Shown in pieces: positions 3,939 to 23,933 of a DNA stretch of 32,830 nt; within the stretch, counting starts at the first letter, position 1; each line of letters starts with the position of its first letter. This DNA is from Clostridia bacterium (lineage in GTDB: Bacteria > Bacillota > Sulfobacillia > RBS10-35 > JAJYVM01). Both the position numbers and the translations under genes were made by a program. The stretch spans positions 1-32,830 of the forward strand of contig DAHVAF010000296.1 in NCBI GenBank assembly GCA_027314765.1. The letters are read 5' to 3'. Below the pieces are notes generated by a model that made no database searches, was not told the DNA's origin, and was given only the letters and a program-made list of their open reading frames with translations.

Positions 3939-4847
3939 TTATGCGAGATAAGCCGCGGCCATCAACTCGACGGCCAGCCGGGCGCCGAGCAGGGCCGTGC
4001 CGCCGCCAGGGTCGAGGAAGGGGTTAACTTCGACGACGTCGGCGCCGACGATGCGGTTGCGTGCCCCCGCCTCGCGGAGGACCGCGCGAACGTCGCGGTA
4101 GGTGAGGCCGCCGGGCTCCGGGGACGAAGTCCCCGGAGCTGCGGACGGATCGAGGCCGTCGATGTCGAGGGTGATGTAGAGGTCGCGCCCGGAGGGCAAC
4201 GCCCGGAGGGCGCCCTCGAGCCCGTCGCGGGCGAGGAGCAGACGGTGACCGCGGGCCACGGCGGCGTCCCAGGCCGGTCGCGACGTCCGGATGCCGCGCA
4301 CGCCGATCACGGTGACGTTTCCAATCCAGGAGAGCTCGCTGGCACGCCGGATGGGGCTGGAATTCGAGCGCGGAAAGCCGCCGACCTCATCGGTGAAGTC
4401 CAGGTGAGCGTCGATCTGCAGGATGTCGACCGGTCGCCCGAGCGCGCCGAAGGCGCGCAGGATGGGATACGTGACGGAATGATCCCCGCCAAGGCCGATC
4501 GGGATGATGCCCGCACTGAGCAGGCTCCGTACAAGAGCGTCGGTGCGTTGGTCCAGCGCATCCAGGTCCGTGTACAGCGGATCCACGTCCCCGGCATCCG
4601 CCAGGCGGCAGCCCACCAGGTACTGGCGGTCGTCCTCCACGTCCCAGTAGCCGGGGTTGGCATCGCCCCAGGCCATGGCGTAGCGGGCGGAGGCGTCGCG
4701 GAGGGCGCGCGGCCCGAGCCGTGCGCCTGGCCGGTACCCGGTGGCGGCGTCGAAGGGAACTCCGAAGACGGCGAAGTGCGGGTGCGGCTCCTGCGTAAGC
4801 AGCGGCGCCGCAGCGAACGTGGCGATTCCAGCCAGCGGCATGGTCAT
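3939..4847 (-). CDS. hutG: Formimidoylglutamase / agmatinase-family ureohydrolase
   Basis: Arginase-superfamily enzyme of 302 residues. Manganese-binding motifs are complete: GGDHS at 120-124, DAHLD at 146-150 and DIDGLDP at 228-234, followed by the PGT..PEPGG block typical of the agmatinase/formimidoylglutamase branch. In its hut context the likely reaction is N-formimino-L-glutamate + water to L-glutamate + formamide, the last step of histidine breakdown. Sequence motifs alone do not exclude agmatinase or another guanidine hydrolase. I chose ATG at 4847 because it overlaps the hutI stop as ATGA and has a purine-rich AGAGGGGG upstream; longer forms of the frame run inside hutI and do not look like protein. 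Confidence 0.85.
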   Translation of the reverse strand: MTMPLAGIATFAAAPLLTQEPHPHFAVFGVPFDAATGYRPGARLGPRALRDASARYAMAWGDANPGYWDVEDDRQYLVGCRLADAGDVDPLYTDLDALDQRTDALVRSLLSAGIIPIGLGGDHSVTYPILRAFGALGRPVDILQIDAHLDFTDEVGGFPRSNSSPIRRASELSWIGNVTVIGVRGIRTSRPAWDAAVARGHRLLLARDGLEGALRALPSGRDLYITLDIDGLDPSAAPGTSSPEPGGLTYRDVRAVLREAGARNRIVGADVVEVNPFLDPGGGTALLGARLAVELMAAAYLA

Positions 4848-6079
4848 ACGACGCGCTGCCCCCTCTTCCACACGGCGGTCACCAGATTGCTGCCGAAGCG
4901 GTACGGGATGGCGGCATGATCGCGATCGCCGATCGCGATCATGTCCGCCTGCTTGCCCGGTTCCAAGGAGCCCACGCGGCCGTGCACATCCAGCGCCCAG
5001 GCCGCGTTCAGGGTGGCCGCGCAAAGCGCCTCCTCCGGCGTCAGGCGCAGCGCGACGCATGCCAGGCCAATGATCACGGCCATGGACTCGATGGGGGACG
5101 AGCCGGGGTTGCAGTCGGTGGCAAGCGCGACGGCGACGCCGGCGTCGACCAGGTGCCGCGCGGGCGCGTGCTCGATGCCGAGGAGGAAGGAGGCTCCGGG
5201 AAGCAGCACGCCCATGACCCCGGCGTCGGCCATGGCGCGGATGCCGTCCTCGGAAACCTTCTCGAGGTGGTCGGCCGTGCGCGCGCCCACGGTGGCGGCC
5301 AGCTCGGCCCCACCGCAGGCGGTCAACTGGTCGGCGTGAAGGCGGGGCTGCAGGCCGGCCGCAAGACCGGCCTGGAGCATCCGGCGTGACTGCTCGGCGT
5401 CGAAGACCCCAGTCTCGCAGAAGACGTCGCAGAACCTGGCGATGCCCTGGCGCGCGGCGGCGGGCGTCATCTCGTTCACGACCAAGTCGACATAGTGCTC
5501 GGGACCCGCGCGAGCCTCCATCGGAACTTCGTGCCCGCCCAACAGGGTCGCCACCAGCTCCACCGGCTCGTCCAGCCGCGCGATGGCGTCCAGCATCTTC
5601 AGCTCGTCCGCGGTCGTGAGCCCGTACCCGCTCTTGACCTCAGCCGTCGTCGTGCCCGCGGCGAGCATCCGGCGGAGGCGCGGACGCGCCCCCGCGACCA
5701 GCTGGTCCACGGTGGCCGCACGGGTGGCCGCCACAGTGGAAAGGATGCCGCCGCCGCGGCGACCGATCTCGGCGTAGGAGACGCCCCGCAACCGCTCGCG
5801 GAACTCGCCGGTGCGGTCGCCGGCGTAGACGACATGGGTGTGGCAGTCCACGAAGCCGGGGAGCACGGTCTGGCCCTTGGCGTCATAGACCTCGCGGGCC
5901 TGCCGCCAGTCTCGAGGCAGGGTGGCCATGGGTCCGACGACGAGAATCCGGCCTCCGTCCACGGCGACATACGCGTCGTGGACCAGGCCCAGATCGCCGA
6001 GGGCGGGACCGCACCTGGGGACGGGACCACCGGACAGGGTGGCCGCTTCCGCGGCCCCCACAACAACCAGATCGATCAC
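4844..6079 (-). CDS. hutI: Imidazolonepropionase
   Basis: Cytoplasmic amidohydrolase of 411 residues that opens the ring of 4-imidazolone-5-propanoate to give N-formimino-L-glutamate, the third step of histidine degradation. The metal site is visible: HTH at 80-82 in the segment [15 protein letters not shown], His183 in GGHEVP, His248 in LHADQ and Asp322 in ATDCNPGS. The EVKSGYGL block at 147-154 is characteristic of HutI among amidohydrolases. Length matches the family. The GTG start overlaps the hutU stop as GTGA, and the stop overlaps the hutG start as ATGA, so the three enzymes should be made in a fixed ratio. Confidence 0.96.
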
Positions 6080-7746
6080 TGTCGCGCGGGGGTCATCGGC
6101 ACGCGGATACCGCGTGCCGACGCGACCTCGATGGCGCGGGGGTAGCCGGCGTCGGCGTGGCGCAGCACCCCTGTGCCCGGGTCCGTGCGCAGCACGTGCG
6201 CCAGGCGCCAGTCCGCCTCCGCGCTGCCGTCGGCCACCCCCACCATGCCGGCGTGCAGGCTGTAGCCGATGCCCACGCCGCCGCCGTGGTGGAAGCTCAC
6301 CCAGCTCGCGCCCGCGGCCGTGTTCACCAGGGCGTTCAGGATCGGCCAGTCGGCGATGGCGTCCGATCCGTCGCGCATGCCCTCCGTCTCCCGGTTGGGG
6401 GAGGCGACCGAGCCGGCGTCCAGGTGGTCGCGGCCGATCACGATCGGGGCCTTCAGCTCGCCGCGGCGCACGAGGTCGTTGAAGATGAGGCCCACGCGGT
6501 CGCGCTCGCCGTAGCCGAGCCAGCAGATGCGCGCGGGCAGGCCCTGAAACGGGATGCGGTCCTGGGCCAGGCGAATCCAGCGGCAGAGGGGCTCGTTGTC
6601 GGCGAACTCCTTCAGGATGACCTCGTCGGTGCGGTGGATGTCGGCGGGGTCGCCGGAGAGGGCCAGCCAGCGGAAGGGGCCGCGGCCTTCGCAGAACTGC
6701 GGGCGGATGTAGGCGGGGACGAAGCCGGGGTAGGAGAAGGCCCGCGCCTCGGGCAGCCCGCCCTCGACGGCCTGGGCGCGCAGGTTGTTCCCGTAATCGA
6801 ACGCGACCGCGCCCCTGGCCGCGAAGACGACGATCGCCTCCACGTGGCGGGCCATGGCGTGCTGGGCCAGGCGCACGTACTCGGCGGGGTCGGCCTCGCG
6901 CAGGTCGGCGGCCTCGCCCGGCGGCAGGCCGGGGGGCAGGTAACCGCGCAGCGGGTCGTGGGCCGAGGTCTGGTCGGTGACGACGTCGGGCTGGAAGCCG
7001 CGGCGGACCAGCTCGGGCAGCACGTCGGCGCAGTTGCCGATCAGGGCGATGGAGGCGGGCTCACGCGCGGTGCGCGCCTGCTCGGCCCAGGCGACGGCGG
7101 TGTCCAGGTCCTCGGTCATCCGGTCGCAGAAGCCGGCGTCCACGCGGCGGCGGGCGCGGGCCGGGTCCACCTCAACGCAGAGGGCGATGCCCTCGTTCAT
7201 GGTGACGGCCAGCGGCTGGGCGCCGCCCATGCCGCCAAGGCCGCCGGTCAGGACCAGGCGGCCCCTGAGGGAGCCGCCGAAGTGCTGGGCGGCGAGGGCG
7301 GCCAGGGTCTCGTACGTGCCCTGGATGATGCCCTGGCTGCCGATGTAGATCCAGGAGCCCGCCGTCATCTGGCCGTACATGGTGAGGCCGGCGCGCTCCA
7401 GCTCCCAGAACTTCTCCCAGGTGGCCCAGTGGGGGACGAGGTTGGCGTTGGCGATGAGCACGCGCGGGGCCCGCGGGTGGGTCGGGAAGACGCCGACGGG
7501 TTTGCCGGAGGCCACCAGCAGGGTCTCGTCGTCGGCGAGGCGGTGCAGCTCGGCGACGATGGCGCGGTAACAGTCCCAGTCGCGGGCGGCCTTGCCCGTG
7601 CCGCCGTAGACGACGAGGCGCTCGGGATCCTCGGCGACCTCGGGGTCGAGGTTGTTCATCAGGCAGCGAAGGGCCGCCTCCTGCTGCCAGCCGCGGCAGG
7701 AGATGGCGGTGCCCCGGGGGGCGCGGACCGTCTCGGCGCCGGCCAT
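6076..7746 (-). CDS. hutU: Urocanate hydratase
   Basis: Full-length urocanase (556 residues, the usual size) that converts urocanate to imidazolonepropionate using tightly bound NAD+. Visible marks are the glycine-rich nucleotide-binding segment [12 protein letters not shown] near 167-178, the conserved block [10 protein letters not shown] at 351-360, Cys408 in [11 protein letters not shown] (equivalent to the catalytic Cys410 of the Pseudomonas putida enzyme), and the late [13 protein letters not shown] segment. The ATG at 7746 is preceded by GGGAGGAAG, a good ribosome binding site. It is the first gene of the run hutU-hutI-hutG. Histidine ammonia-lyase (hutH), which makes its substrate, is not in the window. 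Confidence 0.97.
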
Positions 7747-12074: not shown

Positions 12075-13856
12075 CTAGCCGAGGTAGCGGCCGTACCAGG
12101 AGCGCACCCGGTGCAGGACGTCGAGTTGGTGCGCCCGCTCGCGGAAGCCGTGCGGCTCCCGCGGGTACACCACCAGCTCGGCCGCGCAGCCGGCGTCCCG
12201 CAGCGCGCGGTAGAAGCCGATCCCCTGGTTGACCGGCACGCGGGCGTCCTCGCGGCCGTGCAGGATCAGGGCCGGGGTGCGGGCCGCCCGCGCGAAGGAG
12301 ATCGGGCTGATCAGGGCGGCCGGGTGGGGGCCGCTTCCGTCCCAGGGCCGGCCGCCGCCAAGCGCCGCCTCGAACGTGGCCATGTCGGAGTTCATGACCA
12401 TCGCGTTCCAGTCGCTGACCCCGGCGCCGATGACGGCGGCGCGGAACCGGGCTGTCTGGGTGATGGCCCAGGCGGACATGAACCCGCCCTGGCTCCAGCC
12501 GCCGATCGCCAGGCGCGCGGGGTCGGCGATGCCGCGCGCGACGGCGGTATCCACCGCGGTGAGCACGTCCTGCCAATCCTCGCGCCCGACCCGTCCGCGG
12601 GCGGAGGCCGCGAACGCCTCCCCGTGGCCCAGGCCGCCCCGGTAGTTCGGCTGCAGCACCGCATAGCCGCTGGCGGCGAGCCACTGGCTCCAGCCCGCGG
12701 CGCCGGGGGCCGGGTTGATGCCGGGGGTGACGCGGCCGTATGGGCCGCCGTGGACGAGGCAGACGGTGGGCAGGGGCATCTTGGCCGCCCCGGGCGGCAG
12801 GGTCAGCACGCCGTCGAGGGCCAGCCCGTCGGCGCCCTTCCAGAGGAAGGGTTCCTGGCGCCCCCAGGCCACGTCGGCGAACCCGTGCCTGGCCACGCTG
12901 CGGCCGTCGATGCAGACCTCCGGCGGCCGGTCGGGGTAGGCGACCACCGCCGCCCAGTGCTCGCCGGCCACGCTCGCGTCGCGCAGGTCGGCCTCCCCGG
13001 CGGCTGGCGCCCAGATCGGGGTGGCGGCGCCAGTCTCGGGCGCGATGCGGACCAGGACCGTGGTGAGGCCGCGCGCGACCAGGGCCGCCAGGTCTTCGGG
13101 CCCGTCCCCGCAGAGCCCGGCGAGGCAGTCCTCGTCGCCGCCGGCCACCCGCGCGGGCGGGTCGAGGCGGTAGAGGCAGCTGGACGAGCAGGGCGCCATG
13201 GCGACGGAGCCCGTGTGGAAGATGCCGCCCGGCAGCCAGCGCAGGGCGCCCGGCGAGGCGGCCAGGCGGGCCAGGCTGCGGCCGCCCGTCGTCTCCACGC
13301 TGCAGGGCTGGGTGGCCGCGTCCAGCTCCGGTGAGGGACGCGCCACGAAGACGAGCTCGGCGCCGTCCGGTGACCAGGCGAACGCGCCCACGTGGCGCGG
13401 CTCCCCGAAGAGGGTCTGCGCCGGCCCGCCGGCCACCGCGACGGCGCGCAGGCGGTGGACGGGCGGATCCTCGCCGTCGACCTGGGGGTCGGGCGGATCG
13501 TGGGGATCGGGCGCCGTGAAGGCGATGCGATCACCTCGGGGCGACCAGGCGAACGCGTGCACCCCGCCCGGCTCGTCCGTCAGCTGGCGGGCCTCGCCGC
13601 CCCCGGTCGCCGGCAGAAGGTAGATCTGAGCCTTGCCCGTGCGGTCGGAGCGGAACGCCAGGGTGCGGCCGTCCGGCGACCAGCGCGGCTGATCGTCGGC
13701 GCCCTCGCCCCAGCTGAAGCGGTCGCCGTTCACCCAGATGGCGCTGCGGGTGCCCTTTTTGACGACGTATGCCGCCCGGCGGCCATCCGGAGCCAGGCGG
13801 ATGTCGGAAAGCTGCGGCGCGTCGACGAGCAGCTCCGCGGTCAGCTCAATATCCAT
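12075..13856 (-). CDS. S9 family peptidase (prolyl oligopeptidase / acylaminoacyl peptidase-like)
   Basis: A 593-residue serine peptidase for short peptides. The N-terminal two thirds contain PD40/WD40-like propeller strands with repeated WSPDG-type motifs (PRWSPDGRTLAF, FAWSPRGDRIAF, FAWSPDGAELVF). The C-terminal alpha/beta-hydrolase domain has the nucleophile Ser455 in GGWSQGGF, Asp537 in HGREDARVP and His569 in PREPHGF, and the CLVHGGPYG oxyanion segment. It has no signal peptide, so it should act in the cytoplasm, where its propeller limits access to peptides. The ATG at 13856 starts MDIELTAELL; I see no clear ribosome binding site. It is divergent from a second, different S9 gene across 87 bp. 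Confidence 0.92.
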   Translation of the reverse strand: MDIELTAELLVDAPQLSDIRLAPDGRRAAYVVKKGTRSAIWVNGDRFSWGEGADDQPRWSPDGRTLAFRSDRTGKAQIYLLPATGGGEARQLTDEPGGVHAFAWSPRGDRIAFTAPDPHDPPDPQVDGEDPPVHRLRAVAVAGGPAQTLFGEPRHVGAFAWSPDGAELVFVARPSPELDAATQPCSVETTGGRSLARLAASPGALRWLPGGIFHTGSVAMAPCSSSCLYRLDPPARVAGGDEDCLAGLCGDGPEDLAALVARGLTTVLVRIAPETGAATPIWAPAAGEADLRDASVAGEHWAAVVAYPDRPPEVCIDGRSVARHGFADVAWGRQEPFLWKGADGLALDGVLTLPPGAAKMPLPTVCLVHGGPYGRVTPGINPAPGAAGWSQWLAASGYAVLQPNYRGGLGHGEAFAASARGRVGREDWQDVLTAVDTAVARGIADPARLAIGGWSQGGFMSAWAITQTARFRAAVIGAGVSDWNAMVMNSDMATFEAALGGGRPWDGSGPHPAALISPISFARAARTPALILHGREDARVPVNQGIGFYRALRDAGCAAELVVYPREPHGFRERAHQLDVLHRVRSWYGRYLG

Positions 13857-13862
13857 GGCCGC

Positions 13863-13920
13863 GGCTTCGGCGGCCGGCGCCCGACTCCTCCGCCGAGGAG
13901 TCGGATGGCCGGGTGCCGAA
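13863..13920. promoter_or_regulatory. Large inverted repeat between divergent S9 peptidase genes
   Basis: The core is a perfect 10-bp stem, CCGACTCCTC (13881-13890) and GAGGAGTCGG (13895-13904), with loop CGCC. Flanking arms CTTCGGCGGCCGGC and GCCGGGTGCCGAAG extend the symmetry with two mismatches. The element fills most of the 87-bp gap between the two start codons, so it may be an operator shared by both genes or an mRNA leader hairpin. Confidence 0.6.
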
Positions 13921-13943
13921 GTCAGCCAGAGGGGGAACCGACC

Positions 13944-15125
13944 ATGCGGGCCCTGGTCCCGGCCGACGTCGTCCGGCTCCGAAACGTCGTCGACGTGCAG
14001 GTTTCGCCGGACGGGGGGCGGGTCGCCCACGTGGTCGAGTGGTGCGATCCGGAGGCGGACGCCATGCGCTCCGCCATCTGGATCGACGGCCGGCGGGCCA
14101 CCTGGGGCGGCCGGCGCGAAGGCTCGCCGCGGTGGTCGCCGGACGGCGGCAGCCTCTGCTTCGTCTCCGATCGCTCCGGGCGGCCCGAGATCTGGGTGCT
14201 GCCCGTCGCATCCGGCGGCGAGGCGCGGCGCGTCACCGAGAGCCCCCACGCGCCGGAGCAGCCGGCGTGGTCGCCGGATGGCCGCACGCTGCTGTACAGC
14301 GCCCGGAAAGTGGAGCGCTCCGAGCACGTAAGGCCACAAGTAGTTACGCGCCTGCGATACCTGCTGAATGGTCGCCACTACGTGGGTGACGGCTTCTGGC
14401 AGGCCTTCTCCGTTCCGGCCGCCGGCGGCGACTCGCGTCAGCTCACGGCGGATGGCTGGCATCACCTCCACCCCGCCTGGTCGCCCGACGGGGCGCGGAT
14501 CGCCTTCTGCACGACGCGCAACCCGGACTGGGACCTGGAGTGGGTCTGGGACGTCCATACGGCCGCGTCGGCCGACGGCGGCGACCTGCGCCGGATCACG
14601 GCGGGCGGCGGCGTCTGCCTTGCGCCGGCCTTCTCCCCGGATGGGCGGCAGATCGCCTACCTCTTCAACGCCAACCCGACGACGGGCAGCACGGTCGACT
14701 ACCATGTCTGGGTCGTGGGGGCGGACGGGAGCGGGGCGCGGGACCTGACCGGCGACCTCGACCGCGGCGCCCTCGGACGTGAGCCGCCTGCGGCCCAGCC
14801 CGCGCCGATTTGGTCCCCGGACGGGCGGCACCTGACATGGGTCTGCCGGGACGGCGGGGTCGCGCGGATCGTGCGCACGGCCCTGGACGGCGAGGCCACC
14901 TCCGGGGCGCGGTTCGCGCCGGCCGGCGGCGAGCCGAGCGGCCGCCACGCAGCAATCGGTCCCGCCGAAGGCGCCGCAAGCTGGCCGAGCGCGTCCGCCG
15001 ACGGCCGGCGGCTCGTGTTCGCCTACAGCGACGCCCACCGGCCGCCCGAGGCATGCGACGTCGATGGCAGCCGCCTGAGCGATGAGAACGCGTGGTTGTC
15101 CGAGGTGCGCACGGTCGCGCCGTAG
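13944..15125 (+). CDS. S9 family peptidase, N-terminal propeller part (ends at in-frame TAG)
   Basis: A 393-residue open frame made of PD40/WD40-like propeller repeats (PRWSPDGGSLCFVSDRSG, PAWSPDGRTLLY, PAWSPDGARIAF, PAFSPDGRQIAY, PIWSPDGRHLTW), with ATG at 13944 preceded by AGAGGGGGAA. The frame stops at TAG 15123-15125, exactly where the propeller should pass into the hydrolase domain; the same frame continues after the stop into that domain. The stop lies in the context GTCGCGCCG-TAG-CGCCTGCGG, and relatives would be expected to read something like AP-E-RLRL, so a single GAG to TAG change would explain it. As it stands this part alone has no catalytic residues. Broken gene, sequencing error or recoded amber codon are the options. 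Confidence 0.85.
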   Translation: MRALVPADVVRLRNVVDVQVSPDGGRVAHVVEWCDPEADAMRSAIWIDGRRATWGGRREGSPRWSPDGGSLCFVSDRSGRPEIWVLPVASGGEARRVTESPHAPEQPAWSPDGRTLLYSARKVERSEHVRPQVVTRLRYLLNGRHYVGDGFWQAFSVPAAGGDSRQLTADGWHHLHPAWSPDGARIAFCTTRNPDWDLEWVWDVHTAASADGGDLRRITAGGGVCLAPAFSPDGRQIAYLFNANPTTGSTVDYHVWVVGADGSGARDLTGDLDRGALGREPPAAQPAPIWSPDGRHLTWVCRDGGVARIVRTALDGEATSGARFAPAGGEPSGRHAAIGPAEGAASWPSASADGRRLVFAYSDAHRPPEACDVDGSRLSDENAWLSEVRTVAP

Positions 15126-15884
15126 CGCCTGCGGCTGCCCACAGATGATGGCCTGGGCTTTGAGTCCCTGCTCTGGCTGCCGCAGGGATCGCAGGGGCCC
15201 CGTCCGCTTCTGGTCGAGATTCACGGCGGCCCGCACGGCGCCTCCGGCCCGGCCTTCGCGCCCCGCACGCAGATGCTGGTGGGCGCGGGCTTCGCCGTGG
15301 TGGCCGTGAACTACCGTGGCTCCGGCGGCTACGGGCAGGGCTTCGCCGACCGGATCCACGCCAATTGGGGCGTCCTGGAGCACGCCGACTGCATGGCGGC
15401 CGTCGACCACCTTGTCGCCGCCGGTGTGGCCGACCCCACTCGGCTGGGCGTGTTCGGCGGCTCATACGGCGGCTTCATGACGAACTATGTAATCACCCAT
15501 ACGGAACGGTTTGGCGCCGCCGTGAGCATGTCGACGATCGCGAGCCTGCAGACGCTCGCCTACACCATCGACCACTGGGAGTCGATCGCGACGGACCAGG
15601 GCGGCCCGCCGTACGCGCAGCCGGAATACTACGCGGAGCACTCGCCCATCACGCACGTGGCGAGGGTGCGCACGCCGCTCCTGATCCTGCACGGCGAGCT
15701 CGACGACACGTGCCCGGTCGGCGAGGCGGATCAGTTCTTCGCCGCGCTGCGCATGCAGCGCAAGGAGGTCATGCTTGTGCGCTACCCGGGCGAGGCCCAT
15801 GGCTTCATAATGGGTGGCCGCCCGGAGACGCGGCGCGATGCGCATGCGCGGCTGCTGGCCTGGTTTGTGGAACACCTTGGCTGA
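15126..15884 (+). CDS. S9 family peptidase, C-terminal catalytic part (after in-frame TAG)
   Basis: The 252 codons after the TAG, in the same frame, encode a complete prolyl-oligopeptidase catalytic domain: EIHGGPHG, NYRGSGGYG, nucleophile Ser in GGSYGGF (residue 507 if the TAG is counted as one residue), Asp587 in HGELDD and His619 in GEAHGF. There is no start codon right after the TAG. The first in-frame ATG is at 15273, but starting there would remove the first strands and the oxyanion HGGP segment, so independent expression as an active enzyme is unlikely. Conservation of the whole domain with no other damage suggests the stop is recent or is an error. Joined, the product would be about 646 residues, a normal S9 length. 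Confidence 0.85.
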   Translation, partial: RLRLPTDDGLGFESLLWLPQGSQGPRPLLVEIHGGPHGASGPAFAPRTQMLVGAGFAVVAVNYRGSGGYGQGFADRIHANWGVLEHADCMAAVDHLVAAGVADPTRLGVFGGSYGGFMTNYVITHTERFGAAVSMSTIASLQTLAYTIDHWESIATDQGGPPYAQPEYYAEHSPITHVARVRTPLLILHGELDDTCPVGEADQFFAALRMQRKEVMLVRYPGEAHGFIMGGRPETRRDAHARLLAWFVEHLG

Positions 15885-16185: not shown

Positions 16186-16258
16186 CCCCGTCCCGCCAGG
16201 CGCCGCGCGCGACCTGGACCGCGCACCCTGGAAGGACACGCCACCTCCCTGGCGAAAC

Positions 16259-16279
16259 CGTCCCTCCACTGGAGGGACG
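16259..16279 (+). promoter_or_regulatory. Hairpin that contains the ribosome binding site of the NHL-repeat gene
   Basis: A perfect 9-bp stem, CGTCCCTCC / GGAGGGACG, with a 3-base loop ACT. The right arm is the Shine-Dalgarno sequence GGAGGGA for the ATG at 16285, nine bases from GGAGG to the start. In the folded RNA the ribosome binding site would be hidden. It could double as a terminator for the HU-like gene, though no U-tract follows. Confidence 0.6.
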
Positions 16280-16284
16280 CGCGC

Positions 16285-17700
16285 ATGCGGGTCGGCGCGG
16301 GCTGGCGGCTGGCGGCGGGGTTGGCTGCGCTGGGCGGACTCCTGCTGACGGCGGCCGCGCCGGCATGGGCGACGGCGGGCAACGTCGCCACCGTCGCCGG
16401 CAGCGCAAGCGGCGGCAACTCCGGGGCGCGGGGCTACGCGGGCGACGGCACGCCGGCGACGGGGTCGCAGGTGGCCATGTGGTACCCGCAGGGCGTGGCC
16501 GTCGACGCCGCGGGCGACATCTTCATCGCCGAGCCCATCAACAACGTCGTGCGTGCGGTGGCCGCCCACTCGGGCACCCTCCTCGGCATCCCGGTCGTGG
16601 CCGGCGACATCTACACGGTGGCCGGCAACGGCTACAGCTCGGACCCCGGCCAGGGGGTGCCGGGCGCCGGCGGCTACTCCGGCGACGGCGGCCCGGCGAC
16701 CGCGGCCAAGCTGAACCAGCCCCAGTCGGTCGCGACGGACGCGGCCGGCAACCTCTACATCGCCGACACCAACAACAACCGCATCCGCGAGGTCGCCGCC
16801 ACCAACCACGAGCAGTACGGGATCGCCATGAGGGCCGGCGACATCTACACGCTCGCGGGGAACGGCACGCAGGGCTTCTCGGACGGCCATGGCCTGGCCA
16901 GCAAGGCCGAGCTGTCGTTCCCGGAGGGCGTCGCCGTCGACCGCGCCGGGAACGTCTTCATCGCCGACTCGCTCAACAACCGCATCCGCGAGATCCCGGC
17001 GACCCCGGGGCTGTTCGGCGGCCACTTCCCGTTCAGCCACTTCGCCTTCAACCACCTGAGCTTCAACCTCTTCGGCTTCCACCTGCGCCTGCCCATGGAC
17101 GGCCGCATGCCCGCCCACATCGTGACGGTCGCGGGCAACGGCACGGCGGGCTTCTCCGGTGACGGCGGCTGGGCGCGGGCCGCGGAGCTGCGCCGGCCCA
17201 TGAATGTCGCCGCCGACGCCCGCGGCGACATCTTCTTCACGGATCAGGACACCTTCACGGGCCTGCACGGCGGCCGCATCCGCGAGATCGCGCGCTCCGA
17301 CCAGCTGAGCTTCGGCCAGCGCATGCGGCGCGGCCACATCTACACGCTGGCGGGCGGCGGGACGCAGGCGCCGACGACGGCGGGCGTGCCGGCCGCGGCC
17401 GCCAGCCTGAACGCGCCCTGGGGGATCGCCGTCGACAGCGCCGGCGACGTGATTTTCACGGAGTACCAGGCGTACACGGTCGACGTCCTGGCCGCCCAAA
17501 CGCGCAGCGCGTTCGGCGCCGCGCTGACGGCCGGCGACGTGTCGGTGGCGGCGGGCATCTCCGGCCAGCTCGGCTGCGGGGAGGGGCCTGGCACGGCGGC
17601 GCGCTTCGACTACCCTGCCGGCATCGCCCTGGACGGCGCCGGCAACGTGGACATCGCCGACTCATTCTGCGAGCGGGTGGCGCAGCTCTCCGGGAGCTGA
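16285..17700 (+). CDS. Exported NHL-repeat beta-propeller protein
   Basis: A 471-residue protein with a clear Sec signal peptide (MRVGAGWRLAAGLAALGGLL then an AWA cleavage site near 29). The rest is NHL propeller blades, recognisable by repeated text such as GVAVDAAGDIFIAE, SVATDAAGNLYIADTNNNRI and GIALDGAGNVDIADS, alternating with GDIYTVAGNG-type segments and YSGDGGPAT-like linkers. Such proteins are usually secreted or surface proteins of unknown ligand. Between two blades (about 242-275) is an odd insert rich in Phe and His with an FxFxH rhythm (HFPFSHFAFNHLSFN). Start at ATG 16285 with GGAGGGA upstream. No enzyme motif seen. Confidence 0.85.
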   Translation: MRVGAGWRLAAGLAALGGLLLTAAAPAWATAGNVATVAGSASGGNSGARGYAGDGTPATGSQVAMWYPQGVAVDAAGDIFIAEPINNVVRAVAAHSGTLLGIPVVAGDIYTVAGNGYSSDPGQGVPGAGGYSGDGGPATAAKLNQPQSVATDAAGNLYIADTNNNRIREVAATNHEQYGIAMRAGDIYTLAGNGTQGFSDGHGLASKAELSFPEGVAVDRAGNVFIADSLNNRIREIPATPGLFGGHFPFSHFAFNHLSFNLFGFHLRLPMDGRMPAHIVTVAGNGTAGFSGDGGWARAAELRRPMNVAADARGDIFFTDQDTFTGLHGGRIREIARSDQLSFGQRMRRGHIYTLAGGGTQAPTTAGVPAAAASLNAPWGIAVDSAGDVIFTEYQAYTVDVLAAQTRSAFGAALTAGDVSVAAGISGQLGCGEGPGTAARFDYPAGIALDGAGNVDIADSFCERVAQLSGS

Positions 17701-22366: not shown

Positions 22367-23189
22367 AGGTCCCGAAACGGTCGGCGATGACCTGCCCGAC
22401 GCGTCCCAGCAGCCGCGCCGGCTCCGCCTCGGGCGCCAGGCTGCGGTCGGCGGCCTCATTGGCGAAGGCCACCGCCACCACTGTGGTGTGCGGCCAGAGC
22501 AGGATCGCGGTATCGCAGCGCACCCCGCCAGCGAAGCCGGTCTTATTGGCGATCCGCAGCACGTCCGTGCGCCCCTCTGCCTTGGCGCGGGCATAGGGCG
22601 TGAACGTCAGGTAGCGAGGGAGCAGGTCGACATACTGCTGCCGGCCCATCATGTCGAGGATGGGGGCACAGGCCGCGGGACTCACCCACGTGCCCCGCGC
22701 GATCTTCTCGAGGGCCGCCGCGAACTCGCGCGGCGTGCTCTCGGCGAAGCGCCCGATGTCGCGGCCGATTTCGGCGAACTCGATCCTGCGATGCAGCCGC
22801 GTCGCCGTCAGGCCGAGCCCGGCGATCGAGCCGTTGATCGCCTCAAGGCCGAGCAGGTCGATGAGCATGTTGGTGGCGGTGTTGTCGCTCAGGACCGTCA
22901 TGAGCATGGCCAGGTCCCGGAGCGGCAGCTCAATCCCGGCGGACAGCTCCTTGAGCACCCCCGAGCCGCCCACCTGCTGGTCGGCGCGCACGGGAAGGCG
23001 CTGCTCAAGCGTGAGGTCGCCCGCGGCCACGCGCCGCACGAGCTCCATGAGGATGAAGACCTTGATGCAGCTGGCCGTCGGGTAGACGCCGTCGGGGTCG
23101 AGCGCCAGCGTCGCACCGGTGCTCAGGTCCTTCGCAAAAACGCCCACCCGGCCGTTGAAGCCGGCGGCGAGGTCCTCCAGCGAGGCCAT
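22365..23189 (-). CDS. Class A beta-lactamase-fold serine hydrolase, cytoplasmic form
   Basis: A 274-residue protein with the three active-site elements of class A beta-lactamases: SxxK as Ser40-C-I-Lys43, SDN at 101-103 and KTG at 216-218. The usual omega-loop ExxLN with the general-base Glu166 is not seen; the segment before STPREFAAAL reads RRIEFAEIGRDIGRFAE. There is also no signal peptide with the start I choose (ATG 23189, GGAGGTGG seven bases upstream). Both points argue against a simple secreted antibiotic-resistance enzyme and for a related serine hydrolase acting inside the cell, perhaps on peptides or esters. Resistance should not be assumed. The HxlR regulator gene lies upstream on the same strand. 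Confidence 0.8.
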   Translation of the reverse strand: MASLEDLAAGFNGRVGVFAKDLSTGATLALDPDGVYPTASCIKVFILMELVRRVAAGDLTLEQRLPVRADQQVGGSGVLKELSAGIELPLRDLAMLMTVLSDNTATNMLIDLLGLEAINGSIAGLGLTATRLHRRIEFAEIGRDIGRFAESTPREFAAALEKIARGTWVSPAACAPILDMMGRQQYVDLLPRYLTFTPYARAKAEGRTDVLRIANKTGFAGGVRCDTAILLWPHTTVVAVAFANEAADRSLAPEAEPARLLGRVGQVIADRFGT

Positions 23190-23253
23190 CGTTCCACCTC
23201 CCAGCGCCCGACTTCGGCGCCGGCCGTCACGCACCCGTCCGCCCGGGCACGCC

Positions 23254-23889
23254 CTACCGCTCGACCGGCTGAACCCGCTCCAGGGCCGCGGCGTCGCCCT
23301 CGACCTCCAGCCCCTGGCGGCGCGCCTCGTCGAGTGCGAGCCGCCGGCTCAGGACCCCGTGGATCAGGTTGGGCGGCCCGCTGACGACAGCATCCGGATT
23401 CCGCGCCGAGCCCGGCCGGGCGCGGACCCTGCCGCCTGCGGTCTCGATCACCGCCGGCCCGTCGCCGGTTCGCACCTCGATCACGACCGGATCGGCGTCG
23501 GGGGTCGGGTCGTGGTAGTAGAGCTCGAGCGGCAGCGCGAGCCAATAGGCGTGGAATACGTCATCGTCCCGCGCCTCGGCCAGCAGGGGTGCACCCCACC
23601 GACCCAGTTCGCGGATGACGGGCACCAGGTCCTCACCCCGCGGCGTGAGGCGGAAGAGCGTGGTGGCGACGGGGGGCGGCGCCACTTCGCGGCTGATCAC
23701 CCCGACCCCCTCCAACTGCTGCAGGCGGTCCGCCAACAGGTTGGTGGCGATGCCGGGCAGGCCGCGCTTGATGTCGGTGTACCGGCAGGCGCCCTGCAGC
23801 AGCAGCTCGCGCACGATGAGCAGGGACCACCGGTCGCCGATGGCGTCAAGCGCCTTCGCCAGTGCGCAGAACTGGCCATAGGATCGCAT
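23254..23889 (-). CDS. HxlR-family transcriptional regulator with C-terminal SCP2-like domain
   Basis: A 211-residue winged-helix regulator. The first 100 residues match HxlR proteins: an N-terminal Cys8 followed by ALDAIGDRWSLLIVRELLL, then YTDIKRGLPGIATNLLADRL (recognition helix region) and the wing TLFRLTPRGEDL. The C-terminal half (about 110-211), with VVIEVRTGDGPAVIETAGG and NPDAVVSGPPNLIHGVLSRR, resembles the SCP2/sterol-carrier-like domain fused to some HxlR proteins, which may bind a small hydrophobic ligand. ATG 23889 has GGAGGG six bases upstream. It is divergent from a VOC gene and their promoters overlap, so control of itself and the VOC gene is likely. Confidence 0.85.
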   Translation of the reverse strand: MRSYGQFCALAKALDAIGDRWSLLIVRELLLQGACRYTDIKRGLPGIATNLLADRLQQLEGVGVISREVAPPPVATTLFRLTPRGEDLVPVIRELGRWGAPLLAEARDDDVFHAYWLALPLELYYHDPTPDADPVVIEVRTGDGPAVIETAGGRVRARPGSARNPDAVVSGPPNLIHGVLSRRLALDEARRQGLEVEGDAAALERVQPVER

Positions 23890-23933
23890 CGTTAGCCCTC
23901 CGTCCACGACGAGGCTAGCACACGCGGTCGGAA

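Follow-up and report, generated by a model that had tools for sequence, protein, structure and literature searches.

In the window, the whole 32,830-nucleotide stretch of DNA analysed here, an S9-family peptidase gene is broken by one in-frame TAG, which is its only defect. Translation of positions 13944-15884 on the forward strand gives 393 codons, the TAG, 252 further codons and a terminal TGA, and the TAG lies in the linker that joins the propeller to the catalytic domain. Judged from its sequence, this would be an interrupted S9 gene rather than a working S9 peptidase. On balance, the interruption is best regarded as a very recent nonsense mutation, or a strain polymorphism, in an ordinary exo/oligopeptidase gene; the TAG base is accordingly taken to be real, and recent. 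Support for recent mutation comes from the stop itself, the intact orthologue, the ordinary role of TAG as a terminator in this genome and the lack of decay downstream.

Features of the interrupted peptidase gene and its divergent neighbour (positions in the window).
Feature	Position	Strand	Evidence or remark
S9 peptidase gene, whole	13944-15884	+	One frame broken by a single TAG; 646 positions including the TAG
5′ part: N-terminus and beta-propeller, codons 1-393	13944..15122	+	Pfam; start shared with the G001 orthologue
Premature TAG, codon 394	15123..15125	+	G001 orthologue (same genus) has CAG
3′ part: alpha/beta-hydrolase catalytic domain, ending in TGA	15126..15884	+	Pfam Peptidase_S9; triad conserved
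First in-frame ATG/GTG/TTG past the TAG, codon 444 (ATG)	15273..15275	+	ORF list, sequence
Intact S9-family paralogue, divergently transcribed	12075..13856	-	Pfam, NCBIfam; pair kept in G001

The two parts of the frame together have the domain order of the S9 family, a propeller followed by a Peptidase_S9 domain. Before the TAG, Pfam matches are to PD40 (E 8.2e-37) and DPPIV_N (E 3.8e-6); after it, the full Peptidase_S9 domain is matched (E 2.1e-53). The Ser-Asp-His triad is present as Ser507 (in GGSYGG), Asp587 and His619, which align with the catalytic residues of every homologue covering them. The sequence-only reading had proposed that the propeller frame runs through the TAG into a complete hydrolase with an intact triad and a normal joined length of 646, and this is borne out by the translation, the Pfam and full-length PDB matches, the alignments and the orthologue in genome G001, which shares both start and end. 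The single continuous frame expected of the family is broken here at 15123-15125, whereas it is continuous in the G001 copy. On the opposite strand, a 1111-codon open frame (12075-15410) consists of the real S9 paralogue plus the antisense of the interrupted gene; the antisense portion resembles a shadow ORF of G+C-rich coding DNA. Elsewhere in the window, also on the reverse strand, genes for an arginase-family protein, an imidazolonepropionase-like protein and urocanase stand in a row (3942-7746), forming a histidine-degradation (hut) cluster, and a class A-like beta-lactamase family protein adjoins an HxlR-type regulator (22368-23907).

One same-genus genome, G001, was available for comparison. 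Its orthologue is intact, syntenic and 85-86 % identical, and adjoins the same divergent S9 paralogue, which is also a conserved neighbour in L039; the contig concerned (G001:C514) is apparently the same record as JAJYVM010000097.1 (L039). In G001, codon 394 is CAG (Gln), set in DNA that is near-identical in the two genomes around the joint. All 38 homologues covering this column, G001 included, have a sense codon there (29 Glu, four Arg, and one each of Gln, Asp, Lys, Met and Ile), and none of the matches listed for 60 related genomes has an internal stop. It had been suggested that the original codon was GAG, and Glu (GAG) is indeed the family-level consensus; the nearest relative has Gln, however, and since CAG to TAG is a transition (C to T), the ancestral codon was most likely CAG, changed to TAG, rather than GAG. 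The choice is not fully settled, as either ancestor costs two changes on the tree.

A stretch of about 1.2 kb (16197-17382) just downstream of the interrupted peptidase, covering the greater part of an NHL-repeat gene (16285-17700), lacks an equivalent in G001; there, its flanks are about 12 bases apart; we read this as a probable recent insertion here or a deletion in G001. In JAJZWV010000027.1 (coverage 3.8), the homologue (L045, 5001-6884) is matched in three pieces with shifting frames, which suggests frameshifts or assembly errors in that MAG.

The comparison of G000, the present genome, with G001 also bears on the age of the stop. At a dS of about 0.62-0.63, dN/dS is 0.16 before the stop and 0.085 after it. 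After the stop, eight changes are placed on the G000 lineage and 13 on that of its sister G001, with four unplaced. Had selection on the 3′ part been absent during a share f of the branch, about 170 × f extra amino-acid changes would be expected, by our own estimate from 562 nonsynonymous sites and roughly half of the dS of 0.63. With eight changes against 13, the 3′ part appears to have spent hardly any time without selection, and f would be at most a few per cent. There is no decay downstream of the TAG, therefore the stop is either very recent or not real in the organism. An intact orthologue in a close relative and no further decay are what is expected of a young pseudogene.

Interrupted genes were also sought in a sample of the genome made up of 40 stretches and the window (616 kb, about 15 % of the genome), using a codon-usage scan seeded with homology-supported genes. 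The same coding frame was found on either side of 42 stops, among which the stop at 15123 lies farthest from the start codon that follows it (50 codons). The other longest-gap joints in G000 with Pfam matches lie between two unlike proteins, or between a protein and the gene next to it, leaving 15123 as the only clear within-gene stop in the 616 kb. At 1574 in L089, a same-frame TGA is flanked by coding-like sequence that matches no family either before or after it; another interrupted gene is one possibility here, a pair of unknown genes the other. Of seven flagged same-strand frame switches, five were checked: Pfam shows four to be ordinary gene neighbours and gives no match for the one in L119, so that no frameshift was confirmed among the five. 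The genome has 28 Peptidase_S9 matches and 25 matches to this protein. No other interrupted gene was found among the 28; the stops listed for three of them appear to be terminal codons. The sample also includes a DNA polymerase III alpha subunit gene with an intein splicing domain match (L095, 9638-13810; PF14890, E 1.7e-11).

TAG is an ordinary stop in this genome because RF1 (prfA) is present with a score exceeding its curated cut-off, PylS has no match, none of the 41 tRNAs found with Rfam and given anticodons by ARAGORN has CUA, and 111 of the 381 genes mapped in the sample end in TAG. As the assembly is 87.8 % complete, a tRNA may conceivably be missing from it. General reassignment of TAG, already doubted in the sequence-only reading, is thus strongly disfavoured, and pyrrolysine and a suppressor tRNA, two of the options raised there, were searched for and not found. 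TAG read as Gln, pyrrolysine or another residue, in the organism or at this gene alone, is therefore very improbable. The Gln codon of the sister would fit such a reading, as TAG encodes Gln in genetic code 15 of some phages (PMC9523058); against it stand the decoding evidence above and the lack of any other clear in-frame TAG within a gene in the 616 kb. Just as improbable is a pair of real genes, one for a separate propeller protein and one for a separate hydrolase. Both parts can be recognised as domains, but in the alignment across the joint, a check proposed earlier, not one of the 38 homologues ends or starts there, and the downstream part has no ATG, GTG or TTG for 50 codons, the next one lying beyond the oxyanion motif. 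Both readings were rejected, the one on RF1, PylS, anticodons and stop usage, the other on the joint being unmatched in homologues and the absence of an early restart.

The serious rival to recent nonsense mutation is that the TAG arose through faulty base calling or assembly of a draft MAG and that the gene is intact in the cell, which is a substantial possibility, perhaps one chance in three. The assembly is in 361 contigs, MAGs of this kind can be thin (a contig of the sister species is recorded with cov 1.2), and the lack of decay on either side of the stop fits an error as well as it fits a recent mutation. A random substitution in this coding DNA creates a stop in only about 2.3 % of cases, so a single stop in the roughly 486 kb of coding DNA that were mapped would correspond to about 40 wrong bases, or about one in 10,000, which is plausible at low coverage. 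Checks in Mycobacterium smegmatis traced 28 of 73 interrupted genes to sequencing errors (PMC1852416), so that errors can account for a good part of the interrupted genes of a deposited genome. On the other hand, the 616 kb hold no other clear within-gene stop and none of the frame switches checked was confirmed as a frameshift, so the assembly does not look error-ridden. It is fairly clean, yet one false base creating a stop is well within reach. Of the options raised initially, a recent mutation and a sequence error thus both fit, and readthrough has gained no positive evidence. A real stop in a gene kept functional by a low rate of UAG readthrough, with near-cognate tRNA-Gln as one possible agent, which would yield a small amount of full-length enzyme and perhaps control of dose, is unlikely. 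The intact frame and triad and the low dN/dS on both sides would suit it, and bacterial stops of this type under purifying selection have been reported (PMC7918605). However, the stop is conserved in no relative, no stimulatory RNA structure stands out 3′ of it (folding no better than shuffles, z -0.09), the tRNA set contains no CUA anticodon, and the low dN/dS dates from the time before the stop and does not show translation since. A related and still less likely possibility is a TAG/CAG site that truly fluctuates in the population, where readthrough by tRNA-Gln would lower expression rather than abolish it; if so, this would be one more case of stop codons acting as reversible expression switches.

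Under recent nonsense mutation, a single-base substitution, most likely CAG to TAG, would have arisen very recently or would be segregating within the population. RF1 would then terminate translation at codon 394, leaving a propeller without its catalytic domain. A restart at codon 444 would leave out the HGGPHG oxyanion-loop motif together with the initial strands of the catalytic domain; as the start at 15273 lies past HGGPHG, separate translation of a complete catalytic domain is unlikely. The interrupted copy is therefore probably inactive. Its loss is likely to be tolerated because many paralogues are present, with about two dozen other matches to the peptidase in the genome. The locus should be annotated as one interrupted S9 peptidase gene, and not as two genes or as evidence of amber recoding.

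Among known S9-family peptidases with a propeller (acylaminoacyl-peptidase/S9C type), the joined protein matches PDB 8wt1 over its full length (7-645, E 1.2e-79) and the acyl-peptide hydrolase 5yzm over 9-641 (E 1.7e-57), with the same domain order and triad in both; an in-frame TAG between the two domains is found only in the gene described here. Like the interrupted coding sequences of PMC1852416, it has a single in-frame stop and an intact orthologue, and a true mutation and an error are both possible; those came from an isolate that was resequenced, whereas this gene comes from a metagenome draft. In-frame stops in otherwise conserved bacterial genes are common and short-lived, and TAG and CAG can alternate at one position, an alternation that lasts only short evolutionary times (PMC7918605). 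The Paenibacillus site described there is alike in having TAG versus CAG at one position, a low dN/dS and a short life, although the cases in that study were chosen for a stop common to several genomes and the present stop occurs in one genome only. Most simply, this is a gene interrupted by a single stop, with no recoded codon and no new type of split gene. Should the stop prove real and polymorphic, the published short-lived TAG/CAG stops in bacteria would gain one more case.
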